A stretch of 64,000 nucleotides of DNA, taken from positions 2,790,001 through 2,854,000 of the forward strand of contig NZ_BBZB01000001.1 in assembly GCF_001269985.1 (NCBI RefSeq). The letters run 5' to 3'. A model generated the notes under the pieces. That model did not search any database. It had not been told where the DNA came from and saw only the letters and a list, made by a program, of their open reading frames with translations. Shown here piece after piece: positions 10,427 through 46,890 of this stretch. Origin of the DNA: Pseudoalteromonas sp. '520P1 No. 423' (GTDB lineage: Bacteria > Pseudomonadota > Gammaproteobacteria > Enterobacterales > Alteromonadaceae). Position 1 is the first letter of the stretch. The number at the start of each line of letters is the position of its first letter. Position numbers and translations under genes: made by a program.

Positions 10427-10532
10427 TTTCACTTCTCCCGAAACGAATGTGAAATTATTTTTAAGTTACGCACGGCTCGATTGAGCCAATCCCCTAAGCC
10501 CAAAGCAAATATATTCGCTTTGGGCCTTTTTT
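10427..10532 (+). ncRNA. Candidate small RNA of about 105 nt with three hairpins and an intrinsic terminator
   Basis: Three hairpins follow one another in a protein-free stretch. They are TTTCAC/GTGAAA (10427-10432 with 10449-10454), GGCTC-gatt-GAGCC (10474-10487), and GCCCAAAGC/GCTTTGGGC (10498-10525) ending in CTTTTTT. The last is a strong rho-independent terminator, yet rsmF already has a terminator about 30 bp earlier and the PhoD-like gene is convergent. A free-standing terminator with two more stems upstream suggests an sRNA on the plus strand. The 5' end is a guess and I do not recognise the family. It could also be a second terminator with chance stems. Confidence 0.45.
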
Positions 10533-10610
10533 ATCCAGTTTCAAAACCTGAACTGATAAACTTAACTAAATCTCATAGTAAAACATGTAAAAATACCCTT
10601 TTAAGCTTTT

Positions 10611-17064: not shown

Positions 17065-18303
17065 TTATATTTTTTTGAAAAGCAATGAACCGTTTGTACC
17101 ACCAAAACCAAATGAATTACATAAAGTAAAATCTAGTTTAGCATCACGCGCAGTAAAAGGTACATAATCCAGATCGCACCCTTCATCTGGGTTATCTAAA
17201 TTAATTGTTGGTGTAACTTTTTGATTCTCTAAAGCAAGAATACAAATAATTGATTCTACAGAGCCTGCAGCACCTAATAAATGACCCATCATAGATTTAG
17301 ATGAACTGACCATAACGTCTTTAGCTGCATCACCAAATACTGATTTTATTGCTGCTGTTTCAGCTTTATCTCCGGCATTTGTAGAAGTACCGTGTGCATT
17401 AATATAACCAACTTGATCAGCGTTAACTTTGGCATCATTTAATGCATTTATCATAGCTCTCGCACCTCCAGAACCATTTTCAGGAGGAGAGGTCATATGA
17501 TATGCATCACCACTCATGCCAAAACCAGATAGTTCAGCATAAATTTTAGCACCACGTGCTTTAGCTTGTTCATATTCTTCAAGAACGATTACGCCCGAAC
17601 CATCAGATAATACAAAACCATCACGCTCTCTATCCCATGGACGTGAAGCCGCGGCAGGATCATCATTACGAGTTGATAATGCACGAGCCGCATTAAATCC
17701 GCTCATTCCGATTGGCGTACACGCACGTTCTGCACCACCGGCAACCATAGCATCAGCATCACCATAAGCAATCATACGCGCCGCATGACCAATATTATGC
17801 AGACCTGTAGTACATGCAGTTGCAATAGAGATATTTGGACCACGTAATCCATGCATAATAGATAGGTGACCAGAAATCATATTGATAATTGTTGCAGGTA
17901 CATAAAATGGCGATAATTTTCTAGGACCACTTTTAAGCATTTTCATGTGGTTTTCTTCAATAAGGCCTAAACCACCAATACCCGCACCAACAGCAACCCC
18001 AATTCGGTCTGCATTTTCTTCAGTTACTTCTAAGCCTGAGTCTTTTAAGGCTTGTATACCCGCAGCAACACCATATTGAATGAATAAATCCATTTTTTTG
18101 GCATCTTTTTTAGGCATAAATTGTGTAACATCAAAATCTTTTATGTTACCAGCAAACTTAGTTCCAAAGTCTGACGTGTCGAAGTGAGTTATGATATTAA
18201 TACCACTGTCACCATTTAATAAACCTTGCCAAGTAGATGCTACATCGTTACCTAACGGTGTTAACATACCTAAACCAGTTACTACAACTCGACGTTTAGC
18301 CAC
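17065..18303 (-). CDS. fabF: 3-oxoacyl-[acyl-carrier-protein] synthase II
   Basis: A condensing enzyme of 412 residues with the Cys-His-His triad: cysteine in [11 protein letters not shown] near residue 161, histidine in [11 protein letters not shown] near 304 and histidine in [11 protein letters not shown] near 341. FabF elongates acyl-ACP with malonyl-ACP and controls cis-vaccenate formation. It is downstream of acpP with a hairpin in between, the standard acpP-fabF arrangement. The start has a purine-rich site (CCGGAGGAT in the coding sense) 7-8 nt upstream. Confidence 0.97.
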
Positions 18304-18413
18304 AGAATCCTCCGGGGGATAATTTAAATATTGGGGGGTTTAAATTTGATTAAATAATAATTTTTGTAAAAACAATTATTTAATTAACTTGGATAAAAAG
18401 TGATAGATACAAT

Positions 18414-18435
18414 AAGGGCAGCTAACGCTGCCCTT
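18414..18435 (-). terminator. Hairpin between acpP and fabF
   Basis: AAGGGCAGC (18414-18422) pairs with GCTGCCCTT (18427-18435) around a 4-nt loop; the downstream minus-strand sequence is ATTGTATC, without a real T-run. It is about 20 bp after the acpP stop. It is probably an mRNA-stabilising or attenuating hairpin that lets acpP be made in excess over fabF. Confidence 0.6.
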
Positions 18436-18452
18436 AGAATCAACAAATTTGA

Positions 18453-18689
18453 TTATTCAGTGTGAGCTTGAACGTAATCAATTGCAGATTGAACTGTAGT
18501 GATTTTTTCAGCTTCTTCATCAGGGATCTCAGTATCAAACTCTTCTTCAAGAGCCATTACTAGTTCAACTGTATCTAAAGAATCAGCACCTAAATCATCA
18601 ACAAATGAAGCTTCGTTTTTTACTTCCTCTTCTTTAACACCTAACTGCTCAATTACAATTTTTTTTACGCGTTCTTGGATATCGCTCAT
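18453..18689 (-). CDS. acpP: Acyl carrier protein
   Basis: A small acidic protein of 78 residues. The phosphopantetheine-attachment serine lies in [20 protein letters not shown] near residue 37. It carries growing acyl chains for FabF, FabG and the other fab enzymes, and feeds PlsX. It has a strong ribosome site (AAAGGAAGAATG). The 290-bp gap upstream of it suggests its own promoter in addition to read-through from fabG, consistent with its very high usual abundance. Confidence 0.98.
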
Positions 18690-18792
18690 TCTTCTTTCCT
18701 TTATTAAAAAACGCCACTGCGTTATTTTTCAGATTGTGGCGTAGTTTACGTTGCTAAAATCTCTGATTCAAGTATTTGCTTCGACTTTTTTT

Positions 18793-18807
18793 CTGGTCGA
18801 ACCTGTT
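18793..18807. promoter_or_regulatory. FadR-like site upstream of acpP
   Basis: CTGGTCGAACCTGTT matches the known FadR core CTGGTCNGACCNGTT at all but one specified position. It lies about 105 bp upstream of the acpP start, in the fabG-acpP gap. FadR activates several fatty-acid synthesis genes in gammaproteobacteria. A single match found by eye is weak evidence. Confidence 0.3.
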
Positions 18808-18976
18808 AAATCAGAATCTAATAGTTTATCGCTTATTTTAACAGCAATTTCAAGTGATTTTACTGCTAAATACAAATAAAATGTAACAACTTGTACCTAA
18901 AACGTCACAACTTATTTCTATAATCTCTGAAACTTAAATATATATTAAATGAAATTCATCCAATTTTTATTAAGTT

Positions 18977-19723
18977 CTAAATCATATACATACCACCATT
19001 TACATGAATAGTCTCACCATTCACGTATGCAGCAGCATCTGAAGCTAAATAAGTTACAGCTGCAGCAATTTCATCAGGATTACCTAAACGACCTGCAGGT
19101 ACATTTGCAAGTGTTGCAGCTTTTTGATCTTCGGTTAACTCATCAGTCATATCAGTTTGAATAAAGCCTGGTGCAACGACATTTACTGTAATACCACGAG
19201 ATGCAACTTCACGCGCCATAGATTTAGAAAAACCAATTACGCCTGCTTTAGCTGCAGCATAATTTGCTTGTCCAGCATTACCCATAGTACCCACAACTGA
19301 CCCTATATTGATGATACGACCAGCGCGTTTTTTCATCATAGGACGTAAAACAGCTTTTGAAAGACGGAAAATAGAACTTAAGTTCGTATCTATAATGTCA
19401 TCCCATTCTTGAACTTTCATACGCATTAATAAGTTATCGCGTGTGATACCCGCATTATTAACTAATACATCTAAATCGCCTAAATCAGCTTTGATAGCAG
19501 CTAATGTATCTTTAATAGAATCAGCGTCAGTTACATTCAAAGCATAACCTTTACCTGCTTCACCTAGATATTCACTGATCTTAGCGGCACCAGATTCACT
19601 TGTCGCTGTACCTGCAACAGTTGCACCTTGAGCAACAAGCATTTGTACGATTGATTTACCAATTCCACGGCTTGCGCCAGTTACTAAGATAACCTTACCG
19701 GTTAAAGAAAATAAATTACTCAT
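18977..19723 (-). CDS. fabG: 3-oxoacyl-ACP reductase FabG
   Basis: A classical short-chain dehydrogenase of 248 residues. The NADPH-binding GASRGIGKS is at residues 15-23, NNAG near 86, and the catalytic Ser-Tyr-Lys with YAAAK near 154. It reduces 3-oxoacyl-ACP to 3-hydroxyacyl-ACP. The gene lies 20 bp after fabD, in the usual fabD-fabG-acpP order. The C-terminus ending in HVNGGMYM is typical. Confidence 0.97.
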   Translation of the reverse strand: MSNLFSLTGKVILVTGASRGIGKSIVQMLVAQGATVAGTATSESGAAKISEYLGEAGKGYALNVTDADSIKDTLAAIKADLGDLDVLVNNAGITRDNLLMRMKVQEWDDIIDTNLSSIFRLSKAVLRPMMKKRAGRIINIGSVVGTMGNAGQANYAAAKAGVIGFSKSMAREVASRGITVNVVAPGFIQTDMTDELTEDQKAATLANVPAGRLGNPDEIAAAVTYLASDAAAYVNGETIHVNGGMYMI

Positions 19724-19742: not shown

Positions 19743-20675
19743 TTAAAATGCTAATGCTTTTTCGAATGATGCGACATCATTAACTGATGCACATGAAACT
19801 GATTTATCAATGCGTTTTGCTAAACCTGATAATACTTTACCTGGACCAAATTCATAAGTCGTAGTAATGCCGTCTTTTGCGAACATTTGAACTGTTTCAG
19901 TCCATCTGACTGGACAGTATAATTGACGCACAAGAGCATCTTTAATCGCTTGTTCAGCTGTTTCAACTTTAACATCAACATTATTGAGCACTGATACTTC
20001 AGGTGTATTAAATGTTAAAGCGTTTAAATCTTTTGCTAATTTTTCAGCTGCTGGTTTCATTAATGCACAATGAGATGGCACACTCACAGCTAATGGTAAT
20101 ACACGTTTTGCACCCGCTTCTTTACATGCAATAGATGCACGTTCAACAGCATCTTTACTCCCTGCGATCACAACTTGACCAGGGGAGTTAAAGTTAACAG
20201 CGGAAACAACTTCACCATTTTCACTTTGCTTGCAAGATTCAATCACTGCTTCATCAGCTAAACCAATCACAGCTGCCATTGAACCCGTTCCAGCTGGCAC
20301 GGCTTCTTGCATATAAACGCCACGTTTTTCAACAAGTTTTACCGCATCAGCTAATGAAACAACGCCCGCACATACCAGCGCAGAGTATTCACCTAAACTA
20401 TGACCAGCTAATACATCAGGTTTTTGACCGTTTTGTGCTAACCAATGTCGGTAGATAGCAACACTTGCAGTTAATAATGCAGGTTGTGTTCTATGTGTTT
20501 CATTTAACTTTTCACTTGGACCATTTAAAACTAAGTCTGTTAAGTCATAACCTAAAGCTAGTGAAGCTTCATCAAATGTTGTTTTAACTTCTTCAGATGT
20601 TTCAAGTAACTGGGCTAACATACCAACAGATTGAGACCCTTGTCCCGGAAATAATATCGCTAATTTTTCAGACAT
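19743..20675 (-). CDS. fabD: Malonyl-CoA:ACP transacylase FabD
   Basis: A 310-residue acyltransferase with the nucleophilic serine in AGHSLGEYSAL near residue 91, N-terminal FPGQGSQ and histidine in VPSHCALM near 201. It loads malonyl onto ACP for FabF and other condensing enzymes. I chose ATG at 20675 (MSEKLAILFPGQ) instead of an in-frame TTG four codons upstream, because TGGAT lies just before it at suitable spacing. Its usual upstream neighbour fabH is missing, and a 400-bp gap with a MITE-like element and a fabH relic sits there instead. The gene may thus use a promoter supplied by that gap. Confidence 0.96.
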   Translation of the reverse strand: MSEKLAILFPGQGSQSVGMLAQLLETSEEVKTTFDEASLALGYDLTDLVLNGPSEKLNETHRTQPALLTASVAIYRHWLAQNGQKPDVLAGHSLGEYSALVCAGVVSLADAVKLVEKRGVYMQEAVPAGTGSMAAVIGLADEAVIESCKQSENGEVVSAVNFNSPGQVVIAGSKDAVERASIACKEAGAKRVLPLAVSVPSHCALMKPAAEKLAKDLNALTFNTPEVSVLNNVDVKVETAEQAIKDALVRQLYCPVRWTETVQMFAKDGITTTYEFGPGKVLSGLAKRIDKSVSCASVNDVASFEKALAF

Positions 20676-20709
20676 GTTTTTATCCAATATATCTTGTTAT
20701 TAATATTTA

Positions 20710-20868
20710 ATACCAATCCCAATAAATATGTGATCAATCTAAATGGCCTAAATATACAATTACTGCGTTATTTTCAATCCCAATAGCCAGCTATTGCTCT
20801 ATCAAACGCCTTGCCCTTGAAAATTTATCCTAATTTATATTAGCCCACTAACTTAATAGAATTGGTAT
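20710..20868. mobile_element. MITE-like repeat with ATACCAAT/ATTGGTAT ends
   Basis: The element begins ATACCAATCCCAATAAATA and ends TAATAGAATTGGTAT, giving short terminal inverted repeats (ATACCAAT). The interior is non-coding and has small palindromes such as AATAGC-cag-GCTATT-like sequence near 20790. Ends of the same kind bound the 57480-57743 element. No transposase is present, so it is a non-autonomous relic, about 159 bp. It lies exactly where the body of fabH should be. Confidence 0.65.
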
Positions 20869-21080
20869 AACTCATACAGAAACCAAGTAGCAATGTTCTT
20901 GATATTGCTCTTGTTCAATTAATTTCTGTAACAGTTTTGTTTCTTAAAAATATGACGTTGTTTTGTAAGAGTTAGTGCAATGTTCAATCGCCCTATTATA
21001 GAGAGCAGTTTTTCTATATCAGCATTTGGCCATATTTTGTTTGTGATATCTCTCCCGATAGAAAAAATGATTAAATGCAT
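20869..21080 (-). pseudogene. fabH: Relic of fabH (3-oxoacyl-ACP synthase III), 5' end only
   Basis: An ATG at 21080, eight bases after the plsX stop and behind an AGGGGA ribosome site, opens a 53-codon frame. It aligns without gaps to the first 44 residues of FabH: WPNADIEKLL against the family TNADLEKMV, and LTKQRHI against the GIRERHI segment, each at the same distance from the start. A one-base shift after RHI gives RNKTVTEI, a stop and TRAI, resembling the next FabH segment. Everything carrying the Cys-His-Asn active site is gone. Position between plsX and fabD is exactly that of fabH in relatives. This is my alignment from memory of FabH. Confidence 0.75.
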
Positions 21081-21087
21081 AAATCCC

Positions 21088-22116
21088 CTATTCGTCTGTA
21101 TTTATAATCTCTTCGAATTTGTGCCGGATTTTTTCAGGAAGTTGACGTTCAACCTCTCTTACGGCTTCTTCGATTGCAGCTAAAAAGGCTTTTTTGGAAG
21201 CATTTCCATGACTTTTCACTACAATACCGCGCAATCCTACCAGACTTGCACCGTTATACTGGTCGGGGTTCACTCTTTTGTAGAGTTTTTTTAATACGGG
21301 GAACAATAAAAGTGCTAAAAACTTATTAAATAAGCTTTTGTTTAATGCTTTTGTTAGTTTATGAACGATTAGTTTTGCAATACCCTCACATGTTTTTAAT
21401 GCAACATTTCCAGTAAAACCATCACATACAATGACATCGGCTTTACCTGTAAAAATATCATTACCTTCTGAATAACCAATATAATTAATATGGTCGCTAG
21501 ATTGTAATAATTTAGCTGCCTCTTTAATGCTATCGTGGCCTTTTATTTCTTCGGCGCCCATATTTAATAGGCTTACTTTTGCATTGGTGATATTTTGAGC
21601 TTGCTCAGCAACCACTGAACCCATAACGGCAAATTGAAATAATACATCACTATCACAGGCAACATTCGCGCCTAAATCTAGTAAATAAACAGGTCTTGGG
21701 GTTTGAGTCGGTACCGTAGATATCAAAGCAGGACGCTTAACGCCTGGTAGCATTTTTAAAACGTAATGTGCCATTGCTAATAAAGCACCGGTATTACCCG
21801 CTGTTACACAAGCTTGTGCTCTACCTGATTTAACTAGATCAAGAGATACTCTCATGGAAGAGTCTTTTTTATTACGTAAAGCAAATGAGGGTAAATCATG
21901 ATTATTCACAACTTCGGAACAATGTTCGATTTGAATTCTTGGGTGTGTTAAGGCTTCTAGTTTTTTAAGTTCGCAGCGAATTTGACGTTCATTACCGCAT
22001 AAGATCAAAGTGAGATGATCTATTAACTTGACTGCTTCTACGGCAGCTGGAAGAGATGAACGGGGGCCGTAATCGCCCCCCATTATATCTAACGCTATGG
22101 TTAGATTATTAGACAT
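21088..22116 (-). CDS. plsX: Phosphate acyltransferase PlsX
   Basis: A 342-residue protein with the PlsX hallmarks [11 protein letters not shown] at the start, [10 protein letters not shown] near residue 107, and [12 protein letters not shown] near 230. It converts acyl-ACP to acyl-phosphate, the donor used by PlsY for glycerol-3-phosphate acylation. It follows rpmF by 13 bp in the conserved yceD-rpmF-plsX order. The expected next gene, fabH, survives only as a relic. Confidence 0.96.
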
Positions 22117-25793: not shown

Positions 25794-28700
25794 ATGAAAC
25801 GTATGCTAATCAATGCTACGCAGCAAGAAGAAATGCGCGTAGTACTGGTTGACGGGCAACAACTTTACGATTTAGATATCGAGAGCCCAGGTCACGAACA
25901 GAAAAAAGCCAATATTTATAAAGGTAAAATCACACGAGTAGAACCAAGCCTAGAAGCTGCATTTGTAGATTACGGTGCTAACAGACATGGTTTTTTACCA
26001 CTAAAAGAGATTGCAAGGACTTATTTCCCTAAAGGATATACTTTCAAAGGTCGCCCAAGCATCAAAGAGGTGATTAAAGAAGGTCAGGAAGTTATCGTTC
26101 AGGTAGACAAAGAAGAACGTGGTCAAAAAGGTGCTGCTCTAACAACTTTTATCAGTGTTGCAGGTAGTTACTTAGTATTAATGCCTAATAACCCAAGAGC
26201 TGGCGGTATTTCTCGTCGTATCGAAGGTGATGAGCGTACTGAATTAAAAGAAAGTTTAAGTCGTTTAGAGTTACCAAAAGGCATGGGACTAATCGTTCGT
26301 ACTGCTGGTGTTGGTAAATCATTCGAAGAATTAAACCATGATTTAAATTCTTTAATACTGCACTGGAAAGCCATTCAAACTGCTTCTGAAACAGGTCCTG
26401 CCCCGTTTTTAATTCATCAAGAAAGCAATGTTATCTTCCGTGCAATCCGTGACTACTTACGCCGTGATATTGGCGAAATCATTATAGATAAAAAATCTGT
26501 TTTTGAAGAAGCAAAATCACATATTGAGCGCTTCAGACCTGACTTTATGAGCCGTGTAAAGCTTTATCAAGGTGAAGTGCCTCTTTTTACACATTATCAA
26601 GTTGAAAGTCAGATTGAATCAGCTTTCCAACGTGAAGTGAGACTACCTTCAGGTGGTTCAATTGTAATTGATCCTACCGAAGCCCTTACTTCAATCGATA
26701 TCAACTCCTCTAAAGCAACTAAAGGAAGTGATATTGAAGAAACAGCTTTAAATACTAACTTAGAAGCTGCTGATGAGATTGCACGTCAATTAAGATTACG
26801 AGACTTAGGTGGATTAATTGTTATCGATTTTATCGATATGACACCGCCGCGTCATCAACGCGAAGTAGAAAATCGTTTAAAAGATGCAGTACGCCCTGAT
26901 CGCGCTCGTGTTCAAATAGGCAAAATTTCACGATTTGGTTTACTTGAAATGTCGCGTCAACGTTTGAGACCTTCTCTTGGTGAAGCAAGCCAACATGTAT
27001 GTCCGCGTTGTAATGGTCAAGGTACAGTGCGCTCAAATGAGTCTTTAGCACTTTCTATCCTTCGCTTAATTGAAGAAGAAGCATTAAAAGACAATACAGC
27101 TCAAGTAAATGCGCTTGTGCCTGTTGCCGTAGCCGCTTACTTATTAAATGAAAAACGTAGAAGTGTACGTGCCATTGAAAAGCATCATGATTGTGAAGTG
27201 ATCATTATTCCAAATCAACATATGGAAACGCCGCAATTTGAAGTACAACGTTTAACAAGTGATAACAGTATAGAAACTGTTAGCTTCAACCAAATTCAAG
27301 CGCCTAAAAAGGCAGCACCAGAATTTGTTAAAGCTAAAACAACAGTTAAAGAACAGCCTGCATTACAAAATGTTGTTATTTCTAAAGAAAAAGCACCGGT
27401 ACAACCAACTGCAGCGTCAACACCTTCTGAACCAGGTTTACTTATGAAATTGGGTAACTGGCTAAAATCTTTATTTAGTCCTGAACCTGAAGTTAAAGAG
27501 CCGGAAGTTGTAGCTGAAACTAAACCTCGTAATAAACGTCAATACGATAATAAACGCCGTAATCCGCGTAATCGTAACCAACGAAATAAACAAGGTGATG
27601 ACAGCGTTAAATCAACAACTGAGAATAAGCGCCCTAATCGCGATAAAAACGATTCTAATGAGAGCCGCGACAATAAGAATAAACGTCGTCATAATCAAAA
27701 TAATCGTAAACCTTCGCCTAGTGCACAAGCTCAGAATGATAATGCTAAAGCAGAACCAAAAGAGCAACGCGTAAAAGAGCGTCGTCAACGTCGCAATACA
27801 CGTAAAAAAGTACGTGTACAAGAGCAAACTGAAGTAGCGACAAATACACCTACTGAATTAAATGCTGTTGATGTTAATGCTCAAGTAGATGCAACTGTTG
27901 TTGAAACTGCTAAAGTTGAAGCTAAAGATATTAAAGTCAGCCAAAAACCTGTTGCTGCAAATATTAAGGTTGAAGAATCTAAATCTGAGAACAAATCGGA
28001 TGAAGCTAAACCTGTAGATGCTGAAGTTGAAACAACAAACGAAGATAAAGAGCCTAGAACACGTTCACGTCGTTCACCTCGTCATTTACGTTCTGCAGGT
28101 CAACGCCGTCGTAAACCACAAGATCAAGGCGAAAATGCGATAGAACTTGAAACAACTGAAGCACCTGCATTTGTTCCCGTAGCAGATCAAGCAATGGCAG
28201 AACAAAGTATTGCTGAAGCTACAGTTGAAAAACCTGTAGTTGAAACGCCTGTAGTTGAAACCCCTGTAGTTGAAACGCCTGTAGTTGAAACGCCTGTAGT
28301 TGAAACGCCTGTAGTTGAAACCCCTGTAGTTGAAACACCTGTAGTTGAAACCCCTGTAGTTGAAACCCCTGTAGTTGAAACACCTGTAGTTGAAACCCCT
28401 GTAGTTGAAACACCTGTAGTTGAAACGCCTGTAGTTGAAACGCCTGTAGTTGAAACACCTGTTGTTGAAACGCCTGTAGTTGAAACGCCTGTAGTTGAAA
28501 CGCCTGTAGTTGAAACGCCTGTAGTTGAAACGCCTGTAGTTGAAACGCCTGTAGTTGAAACGCCTGTAGTTGAAACGCCTGTAGTTGAAACGCCTGTAGT
28601 TGAGACGCCTGTTGTTGAGACGCCTGCAGTTGAAGCTAAATCGAAAGAACAGGCTACAACGCTTTCTTTTGGTCACGCAACGGCGCCAATGACTACACCA

Positions 28701-28841
28701 GTATCAATTGAACTTGATACGTCAAGAGAATTACCAAAAGCAATGCCAGATGATTTACGTCCAGCAGTTGCAGTAAGTACTCAAGCGTGTGGTTCAATTG
28801 CTCCAGTAGGTCATGCACGTTCTGAAATGACAGTGTGTTAG
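25794..28841 (+). CDS. rne: Ribonuclease E
   Basis: A 1015-residue RNase E. The catalytic half has an S1 domain (about residues 37-120), the Mg-binding aspartates in SIDINSSKA near 303 and VIDFIDM near 346, and the Zn-link CPRCNGQG near 404. A membrane-binding amphipathic helix is seen in [14 protein letters not shown] near 548-561, followed by Arg-rich RNA-binding segments. The C-terminus has GHATAPMT, like the PNPase-binding end of E. coli RNase E. Between Arg-rich region and end lies a 26-fold pentapeptide run (PVVET). RNase E initiates mRNA decay and rRNA/tRNA processing at the membrane. It is monocistronic. Confidence 0.96.
28233..28637 (+). repeat. 15-bp tandem minisatellite in rne (27 units)
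   Basis: The unit CCTGTAGTTGAAACG encodes PVVET. Twenty-six units encode PVVET and the last is the variant PAVEA. Units differ almost only in the third base of the Thr codon (ACG, ACC, ACA) and rarely GTA/GTT, so the array has expanded recently by duplication. The unit length is a multiple of three, so copy-number change keeps the frame and merely lengthens a disordered linker. Confidence 0.98.
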
Positions 28842-43274: not shown

Positions 43275-44963
43275 TTAGTTCTTTTTATTTTGTGCCCATA
43301 CAGCCAGTTTTTCTCTGAATATTTTAGCGTTATGGCGAATATCTACAGGGAAATCTGGATGTATTAAAAAGTTAGATATATTCTGGGTTTGGTCAAATTT
43401 AGCACCTATTTCTTTTAGCTCATCAAATAAAACGCTTTTAGATATTTTATATCCTTTGTTCAGCTCTATACATAAAACAGGTTTTATGACGCTATTATTC
43501 GAAACTCCAACTAAGGCTGTGCGTTTTACGGCTTTGTGAGTATTAAATATTCGCTCGCACGGTATAGAAAATAAAACTTCTGCATCTGTTTCGACTCTAT
43601 GCGCTTTACGACCACACATCCAAAGTAAACCTTGATTATCTAAATAGCCTAAATCACCCATTCTGTGGCGAACACTTTTGTCATCTTGAATTTTAGCTGA
43701 TTTAGTTGCGCACTCTCGCTCATAATATGCCGAACTTACCATAGGGCCTTTTACAACAATTTCACCTATCTGATTTGCTTGTAGTAATAAATCAGTATTA
43801 ACAACTGTGCCCCAATCTTCAATATTGTCTTCTGTAATTTTAATAATGTCTACGACAACACCTTCTACGGGTTTTCCAACACAAATACCACCGCCATTGT
43901 CGGTAATCTTTGTAGTTTTGAGTAAAGCTTCACTGCCAATTTTAGTTAAGGGCAAAGATTCTGTCGCGCCATAGGAATTAAGCACTTCAACATTGTGATT
44001 AAGCATTTTACTAAACGTTTTAATTGACGCTAAAGTTGCAGGTGCACCCGCTGATATAACCCGTTTTAGGCTTGTTAATTTATGATTATTTTGCTCGCCA
44101 GCCTGACCTAATACTTCAATCAATGCGGGATTGGCAAATAAATTACTACATTGATATTTTTCAATCGCAGAAAATATATATTTTGGATTTGCGCTAATAG
44201 GTTTACTTGCATCCATGTCTGGCACAATTGATGCCATGCCTAAAGCAGGACCAAACAATGAAAATAATGGAAAAGTTGCTAAATCTCGCTCACCCGGTTT
44301 AATTTTATAATCATTTTTAAGCGCGGTGATCTGAGCTTCAAACATTTTATGACTATAAACCACACCTTTTGGCACTCCTGTACTGCCGCTAGTAAATAAA
44401 ATAGCTGACATATCATCATCTGCCAAAGTCACCATTGGGTAAACTTCATTAGCTGGATATTTTTTAAGTAAGCGACTTAATGTCATTTGGCCTGTCAGCC
44501 CAGATATCAGCTCATTACCACCTACGGTTACAACATGTTTGACCGTACTTTTACCCCAAGAGAATAATTTCCGGGCAATATGTGCTTTTGGAATGCCAAT
44601 AAATGCATCAGGTTTTGATTCAATAAAACATTGTTTAAGGTTTTTTACGCCCATGCCTGGATCTACCAGTATCGGAATAATTCCCGCTTTAAATAATGCA
44701 AAAGTAAGTGCAAAAAAATCTATGCTAGGCGTGACCATCAAAACGGCTTTCATGCCTTGTTTTATGCCATAACCATTTAAAGCATGTGCAATAGCGTCAC
44801 TTTTTTCATTTAAGGTTTTAAAGTCTATCTCATCATAGGTTAGCTTTGATAAATGACTTTTTTGAACAGCAACAGCTAGATTTGAAGGTGTTTGAATTGC
44901 GGCACTTTTTAAGTGCCGACAAAGGTTTGCTTTGTTTAAATCTGGCTCTTTAAACATATTCAT
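43275..44963 (-). CDS. oleC: OleC, beta-lactone synthetase
   Basis: A 562-residue ANL-superfamily (AMP-forming) enzyme. The P-loop [18 protein letters not shown] lies near residue 191, and [20 protein letters not shown] and the hinge [20 protein letters not shown] complete the ANL motifs. OleC adenylates the OleD product and cyclises it to a cis-beta-lactone, which OleB decarboxylates. Its start lies 5 bp after the oleB stop. The family call depends on the surrounding ole genes as well as on sequence. Confidence 0.9.
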
Positions 44964-44968
44964 TAATT

Positions 44969-45847
44969 TTATTTTTCGTTTATAAAGTTTGTCACTAGCG
45001 GCACGACTTCGCTACTGGCATCCTCTAGAATATAATGACCACAGTCTGTAAACTCATGTACTTTTGCATTAGGAAGTTCTTGCTTCCATTGTGCTAAGAA
45101 GTGTTTATCAAAAACAAAGTCTTGTGAGCCCCAACAAATCATACTTGGTAACGCTTTAAAGTTATTTAGGCTCTTTGTTATTTGAGACACTAAATCGTAA
45201 TTTCTATCACCTGGTTTTAAAGGAATGTCTTGTACAAACCTTAAAGTTGAAATGCGGTTTTTCCAAGAATTAAAAGGCGCAACATAGGCCTCTCTTATTT
45301 CTTTTGCCATAGGCTGACGTTTTACACCAACATATGATGCGATAGATGAAAACGCATTCATACCACGTACAAGCGCAGTACCTAATAAGGTATTTCGACA
45401 GATCCACAATGCCCATGGGAAAGGTTTAGCTTTAGGTAGATGAAATGCACCTGTATTTAAGATCACTAATTTTTTAATTCGTTCAGGATATCGCGCCGCA
45501 TAACCCATGCCTATCATGCCACCCCAATCATGTACAACTAAGGTGATATTGGCATTAACATCTAAATGTTCAAGTAGCGCTTCTAAATCATCGATACGTT
45601 GTTTTAGGGTGTAATCATAATCCTTATCACCTGGTTTGTCAGATAAACCACAACCAATATGATCAGGTACGATACATTGATGGCTTGCGCTTAACGATGA
45701 TACTAAATTACGATAATAAAAAGACCAACTTGGATTACCATGAACCATAACTACTGGCTCGCCCTGACCTTGATTTACATAATGGTACTTTTGGCCATTA
45801 CGATCCAAATAATTTGTTTTAAAAGGTGAAAGTGATTCCATTACCAT
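44969..45847 (-). CDS. oleB: OleB, beta-lactone decarboxylase (alpha/beta hydrolase)
   Basis: An alpha/beta-hydrolase related to haloalkane dehalogenases. The oxyanion segment [13 protein letters not shown] lies near residue 38 and the nucleophile Asp in [13 protein letters not shown] near 106. OleB decarboxylates the beta-lactone to the long-chain cis-olefin. I chose ATG at 45847, with TTAGG six bases upstream; this overlaps the 3' end of oleA. ATG at 45841 (TAATG with the oleA stop) is also possible, and ATG at 45868 is less likely. Translation is coupled to oleA. Confidence 0.9.
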
Positions 45848-46890
45848 TTCAGACCTAACATCATACAATTTAATCCACTACCTATACCTAAAAAGCTAAC
45901 ATTATCGCCTTTTTTCAAAAAGCCATCATCGTGTGCCATTGCAGCAGTAACAGGTAAAGAAACAGTTCCCATATTACCGAGCAGCTTAAAGGTCGGAAAT
46001 TCTTTTTCTGGGGGAATATTTAAAGCGGTTAATACTTGTTTTTGGTTTGCTGCACCTACCTGATGACAAATCACTTTATCAACTTGTTCTATCATCCAAT
46101 CTCGTTGCTGTAAAAAATGCGACCAAGTATCTTTCGCTAAAGAAACACCCTCTTTTAATAAGGTAACGGCATCAGTGCGCATAAATTCGCGGTATAATTG
46201 TGGGCCAACTTCTTTTAAGCCCCATTGACATAAATTACTATGCTCTGGCGCTGATAAGTGACTCGCACCTAATAACTGATGATTTCGATCTGTTTTTAAA
46301 TCAAATGAACCATCTGTAATAAGCACAGCCACTGCACCTGAACCACCGGTTAAAGTCGCTAATGATTGTGCGTAATTTTGCATTGTAGGCTCTGACAACA
46401 TATCTTCTATTGTGACATCCACGATGTGGCGGGCTGATTCACACGATACAACTAAACCAGCTTTAATTTGGCCCAGTTCAATGCGATTAGCAATATCTAA
46501 AATACCAGATAAAACACCTAAACACGCATTGCTAATATCATAAATAGCAGTGTCTTTAGAGACACCTAATTTTGCCGCAATACGACATGCTGTAGCAGGC
46601 TCATGTTGGTCGCGACACACACCGGTGTAAACAACTGCGCCTAAATCGTCAACAGATATGTCACTTTCAGCGATTGCTTTTTTTGCAGCTGTAATTGCAC
46701 CATCTGATAACTGATGCCCTTTTGGCCACCAGCGACGTTCTTCTATACCGGTTAATGCAGCAAGTTGCCCCATAGGAATACGATATTTTTGATATAAAGG
46801 AGCTAAACGAGATTCAAGTACAGAGCTTGATACCACATGTGGTGCTAGCTCATAGGCTAAACTGTTAATAAAGACGCGGGTATATTTCAT
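45841..46890 (-). CDS. oleA: OleA, thiolase-fold condensing enzyme
   Basis: A 349-residue FabH-like thiolase. The active cysteine is in ISNACLGVLSGI near residue 123, histidine in VICHQVGAANQ near 278 and asparagine in KLLGNMGTVSLP near 308. OleA joins two fatty acyl-CoAs head to head by a non-decarboxylative Claisen reaction to a 2-alkyl-3-ketoacid. It is the first gene of the oleABCD cluster. The cluster is on the strand opposite to the broken solute-binding gene at 47104. It is not a substitute for fabH, since its substrates and product differ. Confidence 0.93.
   Translation of the reverse strand: MKYTRVFINSLAYELAPHVVSSSVLESRLAPLYQKYRIPMGQLAALTGIEERRWWPKGHQLSDGAITAAKKAIAESDISVDDLGAVVYTGVCRDQHEPATACRIAAKLGVSKDTAIYDISNACLGVLSGILDIANRIELGQIKAGLVVSCESARHIVDVTIEDMLSEPTMQNYAQSLATLTGGSGAVAVLITDGSFDLKTDRNHQLLGASHLSAPEHSNLCQWGLKEVGPQLYREFMRTDAVTLLKEGVSLAKDTWSHFLQQRDWMIEQVDKVICHQVGAANQKQVLTALNIPPEKEFPTFKLLGNMGTVSLPVTAAMAHDDGFLKKGDNVSFLGIGSGLNCMMLGLKW

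Follow-up and report, generated by a model that had tools for sequence, protein, structure and literature searches.

Fatty-acid synthesis begins with a step catalysed by FabH, an enzyme studied extensively as an antibacterial target, and a fatty-acid cluster with no intact fabH raises the question of what became of the gene and what starts the chains instead. Such a cluster lies on the minus strand of the 64,000-nucleotide stretch analyzed here (hereafter the window), which is part of a 4.07-Mb contig in the two-contig, 5.39-Mb genome of a Pseudoalteromonas sp. From the listing of open reading frames and, for the first two genes, comparison of plsX-fabD loci, the cluster comprises plsX (21088..22116), fabD (19743..20675) and, next in order and with intact frames, fabG, acpP and fabF (17065..19723). 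Between the end of plsX at 21088 and the fabD ATG at 20675 lie 412 bp, close to the 400 bp given in an earlier, sequence-only reading of this DNA, and no intact operonic fabH is present.

The first 44 codons past plsX (21080-20949, minus strand) align without gaps to residues 1-44 of operonic FabH and retain the start codon. We scored this stretch with a profile of the 16 distinct N-termini found among 24 operonic FabH proteins from related genera (locus L109 was left out although it has a FabH match, and L150 was skipped). Anchored at the start and ungapped, it scored 36.7, a value reached by none of 20,000 dinucleotide shuffles (maximum 12.3, average -42.6), and when the profile was moved along both window strands it came out first of 127,738 placements, with the second at 18.1; the ungapped 44-codon alignment described in the sequence-only reading is thereby borne out. 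The ATG lies 7 nt past the plsX stop, and the intact fabH starts 6 or 7 nt past that stop in 20 of the 24 relatives' loci, so that the relic sits where a fabH pseudogene would be expected, between plsX and fabD and at fabH's own start spacing. The part of the gene encoding the catalytic residues is gone, as in a pseudogene, and none of the FabH codons past 44 (the other 275 of 319) could be detected in the plsX-fabD gap of the window or in those of Pseudoalteromonas denitrificans and Pseudoalteromonas sp. NBT06-2, in agreement with the earlier statement that the enzyme has been lost.

Detection of the relic required a profile of related operonic FabH proteins: with it, the profile search proposed for positions 20869-21080 gave a significant result, whereas the relic had no Pfam match at E-values up to 10 and no NCBIfam match at E-values up to 0.001. 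That range also proved too generous, as only 20949-21080 carries FabH similarity and 20873-20948 is spacer in which similarity to a full-length FabH profile, with frameshifts allowed, was matched by 42 of 300 shuffles. A longer relic was considered and rejected, since the same full-length profile found no similarity beyond the N-terminal part. A scan for promoters and terminators yielded no excess over shuffles.

Two close relatives have the homologous gap. PlsX of the window is 97% identical to the NBT06-2 protein and 94% identical to its counterpart in P. denitrificans DSM 6059, and on this basis we take the genome to be a Pseudoalteromonas of the clade of these two strains. At the same offset after plsX, P. 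denitrificans carries a differently damaged fabH remnant, with ATC at the start-codon position and two frameshifts needed in the alignment; its frameshift-tolerant score of 39.1 was equaled or exceeded by 1 of 4,000 shuffles and was the best among 290 sliding 150-nt pieces of its own locus. The NBT06-2 gap taken alone gave no significant FabH match (344 of 4,000 shuffles scored as high, and other pieces of the locus outscored it), and its DNA aligns to the gaps of the window and P. denitrificans with the frame displaced. The NBT06-2 gap (L052:6030-6344) also seems, by eye, to hold an imperfect palindrome unlike the repeat found in the window.

We extended the scan to the fabH-less gaps of 27 loci, of which three yielded no fabD (L156, L159, L163) and one was too short (L157); among the 23 gaps scored, those of the window and P. 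denitrificans alone exceeded all their shuffles. Two further gaps that apparently come from one genome (L100 and L136) gave scores that 2 and 3 shuffles in 100 equaled, in a stretch that ends at the fabD start, and no relic is claimed there. The P. denitrificans clade is thus unusual in that remains of fabH still show.

These comparisons also bear on two rival readings of this stretch. One is that the FabH similarity arose by chance in AT-rich intergenic DNA, and it gains something from the silence of Pfam and NCBIfam, from the insignificance of the NBT06-2 copy on its own and from the fact that the spot had been picked by a reader ahead of testing; with the relic at the expected start, ahead of all other placements by a wide margin, and with P. 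denitrificans holding another copy, damaged in a different way, in the one other gap that beat all its shuffles, we regard chance as scarcely credible. The other concerns the 53-codon open frame that encloses the relic (20919..21080, minus strand) and shares its ATG, which could in principle encode a functional small protein or a leader. In P. denitrificans this frame no longer has its start codon, in NBT06-2 it is displaced, and no Pfam or NCBIfam family matches it, so that it is probably no gene and a functional product is almost certainly not the explanation. We therefore consider the fabH relic established as far as sequence can establish such a thing.

The gap also contains a MITE-like element of 168 bp with inverted ends ACCAAT...ATTGGT (20705..20872). 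It has at least 45 full or partial matches in the genome, itself included (40 of 63 candidate places were scored), and the single copy in the window is this one before fabD. The sequence-only reading was right that a repeat occupies the space between plsX and fabD, but the element overlaps the range given for the relic by only 4 bases. It had no significant match in the NBT06-2 or P. denitrificans loci and is absent from both homologous gaps; it was therefore probably inserted after fabH had been lost, and we rejected it as the cause of the loss.

Nor is the loss special to this genome. From 87 related loci we kept 80 named ones, 62 from Pseudoalteromonas and 18 from other genera. In none of the 62 Pseudoalteromonas loci did the DNA separating plsX from fabD give a FabH match, and the comparison of spacing that had been suggested for relatives gave fabH-less gaps of 48-314 bp in this set. 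Operonic FabH was present in 17 of the 18 other loci, including both from Algicola, the exception being Pseudocolwellia agarivorans. A whole-genome search, in a set that overlaps the named loci, likewise found no operonic FabH in any of 35 congeners. Within our sample, the loss of fabH is genus-wide.

What, then, would initiate fatty-acid synthesis in these bacteria? The sequence-only reading argued that a second FabH or another route must exist, and the genome offers both a FabY-type gene and a second KAS III on its other contig. The fabY gene (G000:C1:1973202-1975094) encodes 631 aa, of which residues 2-630 match residues 7-637 of PDB 4cw4, which we take to be the P. aeruginosa FabY, at near full length (E 8e-217). 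Its Cys-His-His columns (GAC, AHG and GH, of KAS I/II type) are invariant in all 32 aligned FabY sequences, though narrower active-site patterns missed several of these, including that of P. denitrificans. With dN/dS of 0.046 and 0.071 against the two close relatives, the gene is under purifying selection, and FabY is found in all 35 congeners at 66-93% identity.

The distribution of the two enzymes across the order is close to reciprocal. We surveyed 197 genomes, including that of the window, counting FabH1, the operonic type, as present when the best match to Algicola FabH1 fell below 1e-100 (observed E-values were either below 1e-103 or above 1e-78) and FabY at a threshold of 1e-60; adjacency of FabH to plsX was checked directly in 24 loci and L109, and by coordinates for some genomes of the order. 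FabH1 only was found in 164 genomes, FabY only in 24, both in 1 and neither in 8, so that operonic-type FabH is absent from 24 of the 25 FabY genomes versus 8 of the 172 genomes that have no FabY, counts taken over related and hence not independent genomes. The genomes with neither are one fragmented assembly (G131) and seven of at most 1 Mb. In 16 genomes picked from the 80 named loci, FabY occurred in all four that lack the operonic gene, whereas the 12 that have it were all without FabY. Both states are found within genus g16, with FabH1 in five genomes (G050, G076, G096, G174, G200) and FabY in three (G114, G146, G187); in G146, an assembly of 600 contigs, FabY is split into two pieces. 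The lone genome with both enzymes, G223, is a possible intermediate. This reciprocal presence and absence supports replacement by FabY, which is likely to serve as a working substitute for the operonic FabH. The earlier description of the locus as a gene replacement beside an element is thus supported as regards replacement, with FabY as the putative successor, and needs correcting as regards the element, a probable later insertion in one member of a genus that lacks operonic fabH throughout our sample.

FabY would not have to be the main initiator, since the genome encodes a second KAS III, FabH2, on the 1.32-Mb contig (C2:135129-136196) that could be the main replacement while FabY serves in another role, with the relic nonetheless real. 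FabH2 exceeds the cut-off of NCBIfam TIGR00747 (336 versus 292.1 bits), and its nearest solved relative is PDB 4wzu, presumably from Vibrio cholerae, which it matches over residues 3-355 of 356 (E 4e-135), including a C-terminal extension beyond the Algicola FabH; here this type of enzyme occurs without an intact operonic FabH1, unlike in the 4wzu-type system. In alignment with Algicola FabH, its Cys/His/Asn triad is intact. It is under purifying selection (dN/dS 0.055 and 0.071 against the two close relatives), and 34 of the 35 congeners have it; the one without, G001, is a single 3.6-Mb contig that may have no second replicon. These properties count against FabY as the explanation, as does the compatibility of FabH and FabY seen in G223 and, as tabulated in PMC9365125, in three Aliamphritea strains. 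However, FabH2 also coexists with operonic FabH in genomes of the order such as G040, G043, G054, G055 and G059, so that its presence does not track the loss, and it is not general, as 9 of the 24 FabY genomes without operonic-type FabH show no FabH match at 1e-40. We consider it unlikely that FabH2 is the main replacement.

A third possible route is a MadA-like malonyl-ACP decarboxylase that would make acetyl-ACP for FabB or FabF. The genome has an open frame of 333 aa in which YiiD_C scores above its Pfam cut-off (G000:C1:108516-108932), such a protein occurs in all 35 congeners and in 14 of 24 other genomes of the order, and a FabH-independent decarboxylase route of this kind is described for E. 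coli in the section consulted of PMC8666670. Yet many genomes with operonic-type FabH have a MadA-like protein too, and none was found in G038 and G047, which have FabY and no operonic-type FabH. Initiation by this protein therefore appears very improbable.

Taken with the reciprocity, this leads us back to FabY. We think it quite probable, on sequence comparisons, that the operonic KAS III gene fabH disappeared in the common ancestor of the P. denitrificans clade or close to it, that its codons 1-44 were left as a neutrally decaying remnant, and that the cell could do without the gene because the first acetoacetyl-ACP is formed by a FabY-type ketoacyl synthase. FabY would have been present before the loss and would initiate synthesis in this Pseudoalteromonas sp., with FabH2 and the MadA-like protein in secondary roles.

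The state of the relic offers some indication of when this happened. In simulated neutral decay, a score as high arose with probability 0.55 after 0.5 changes per site, falling to 0.038 after 0.8 and to 0.005 after 1.0, and the relic thus fits approximately 0.5 neutral changes per site, near half of the dS to P. denitrificans. By the NG86 method dS was 0.65 to NBT06-2, 0.99 to P. denitrificans and 1.66 to a more distant congener (L053), values near saturation, with YN00 giving 1.10 in place of 0.65 for NBT06-2. Because this amount of decay is near the age of the clade, the simple neutral model favours a loss of fabH in the P. denitrificans clade separate from that in other Pseudoalteromonas over one older loss shared by all.

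Phylogenies suggest that fabY itself has moved between genera. In a tree of 32 FabY sequences, 17 of them from Pseudoalteromonas, six foreign ones (G229, G107, G182, G244, G187 and G114) are nested within the Pseudoalteromonas group beside the P. denitrificans clade (support 0.975; some deep nodes are weak, at 0.545), whereas in a PlsX tree the Pseudoalteromonas sequences form one group (0.869) that has Algicola as its neighbour. Operonic-type FabH is absent in all six. The nesting of these foreign FabYs suggests transfer in one direction or the other; on the early branching order within Pseudoalteromonas, the PlsX tree disagrees with a tree of eight proteins (L109 left out). The FabY-for-fabH swap appears recurrent in related bacteria, and we lean slightly toward a broader interpretation in which fabY is a transferable replacement for fabH, after whose entry into a lineage of the order the operonic gene is repeatedly lost, with both states seen within g16 and a final trace of one such event kept in the P. 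denitrificans clade.

Pseudomonas shares a FabY-class synthase with the present system, and there too no fabH is known to stand between plsX and fabD. FabY-initiated synthesis has been described in P. aeruginosa (Yuan et al. 2012, as cited in PMC8666670, PMC12323585 and PMC4793157); here, by contrast, the fossil of the lost gene is readable and fabY is apparently mobile between genera. The available part of a study of Amphritea and Aliamphritea (PMC9365125) reports fabY in all 8 strains and fabH in three of these, the three Aliamphritea strains having both; as here, fabY is retained and fabH is present or absent by lineage, but these are other genera, three strains have both genes, and that text mentions no relic. 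A predicted pathway figure for Thalassotalea names FabH/FabY (PMC10237450), so that fabY has been noted in another marine gammaproteobacterium, but the accessible text makes no statement on a swap. A literature search covering titles, the starts of abstracts and term counts, mostly outside subscription papers, found no report of a fabH fossil or of a recurrent FabY swap, and its sole co-mention of FabY and Pseudoalteromonas concerned a phage of P. aeruginosa. Replacement of FabH by FabY is thus known from Pseudomonas, and what is unusual here is the fossil. Because the fossil can still be read, it helps in dating one of the losses, and the reciprocity of FabY and FabH makes the question of what permits such a gene loss testable in harmless marine bacteria.

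Several other features of the contig were recorded. The window contains an SdsR/RyeB small RNA over the Rfam gathering score (10442-10533), and a 1015-aa protein, which we assume to be RNase E-like, in which VVETP is repeated many times over toward the C-terminus (25794-28841). Three neighbouring minus-strand genes (43275-46890), the third of which matches NCBIfam NF006720 over its cut-off, seem to us to resemble OleC, OleB and OleA, which act in the synthesis of long-chain olefins. Past the window, large frames of 1943 and 2696 aa carry ketosynthase domains (G000:C1:2882871-2895406) and may, as a guess, belong to a PUFA synthase.
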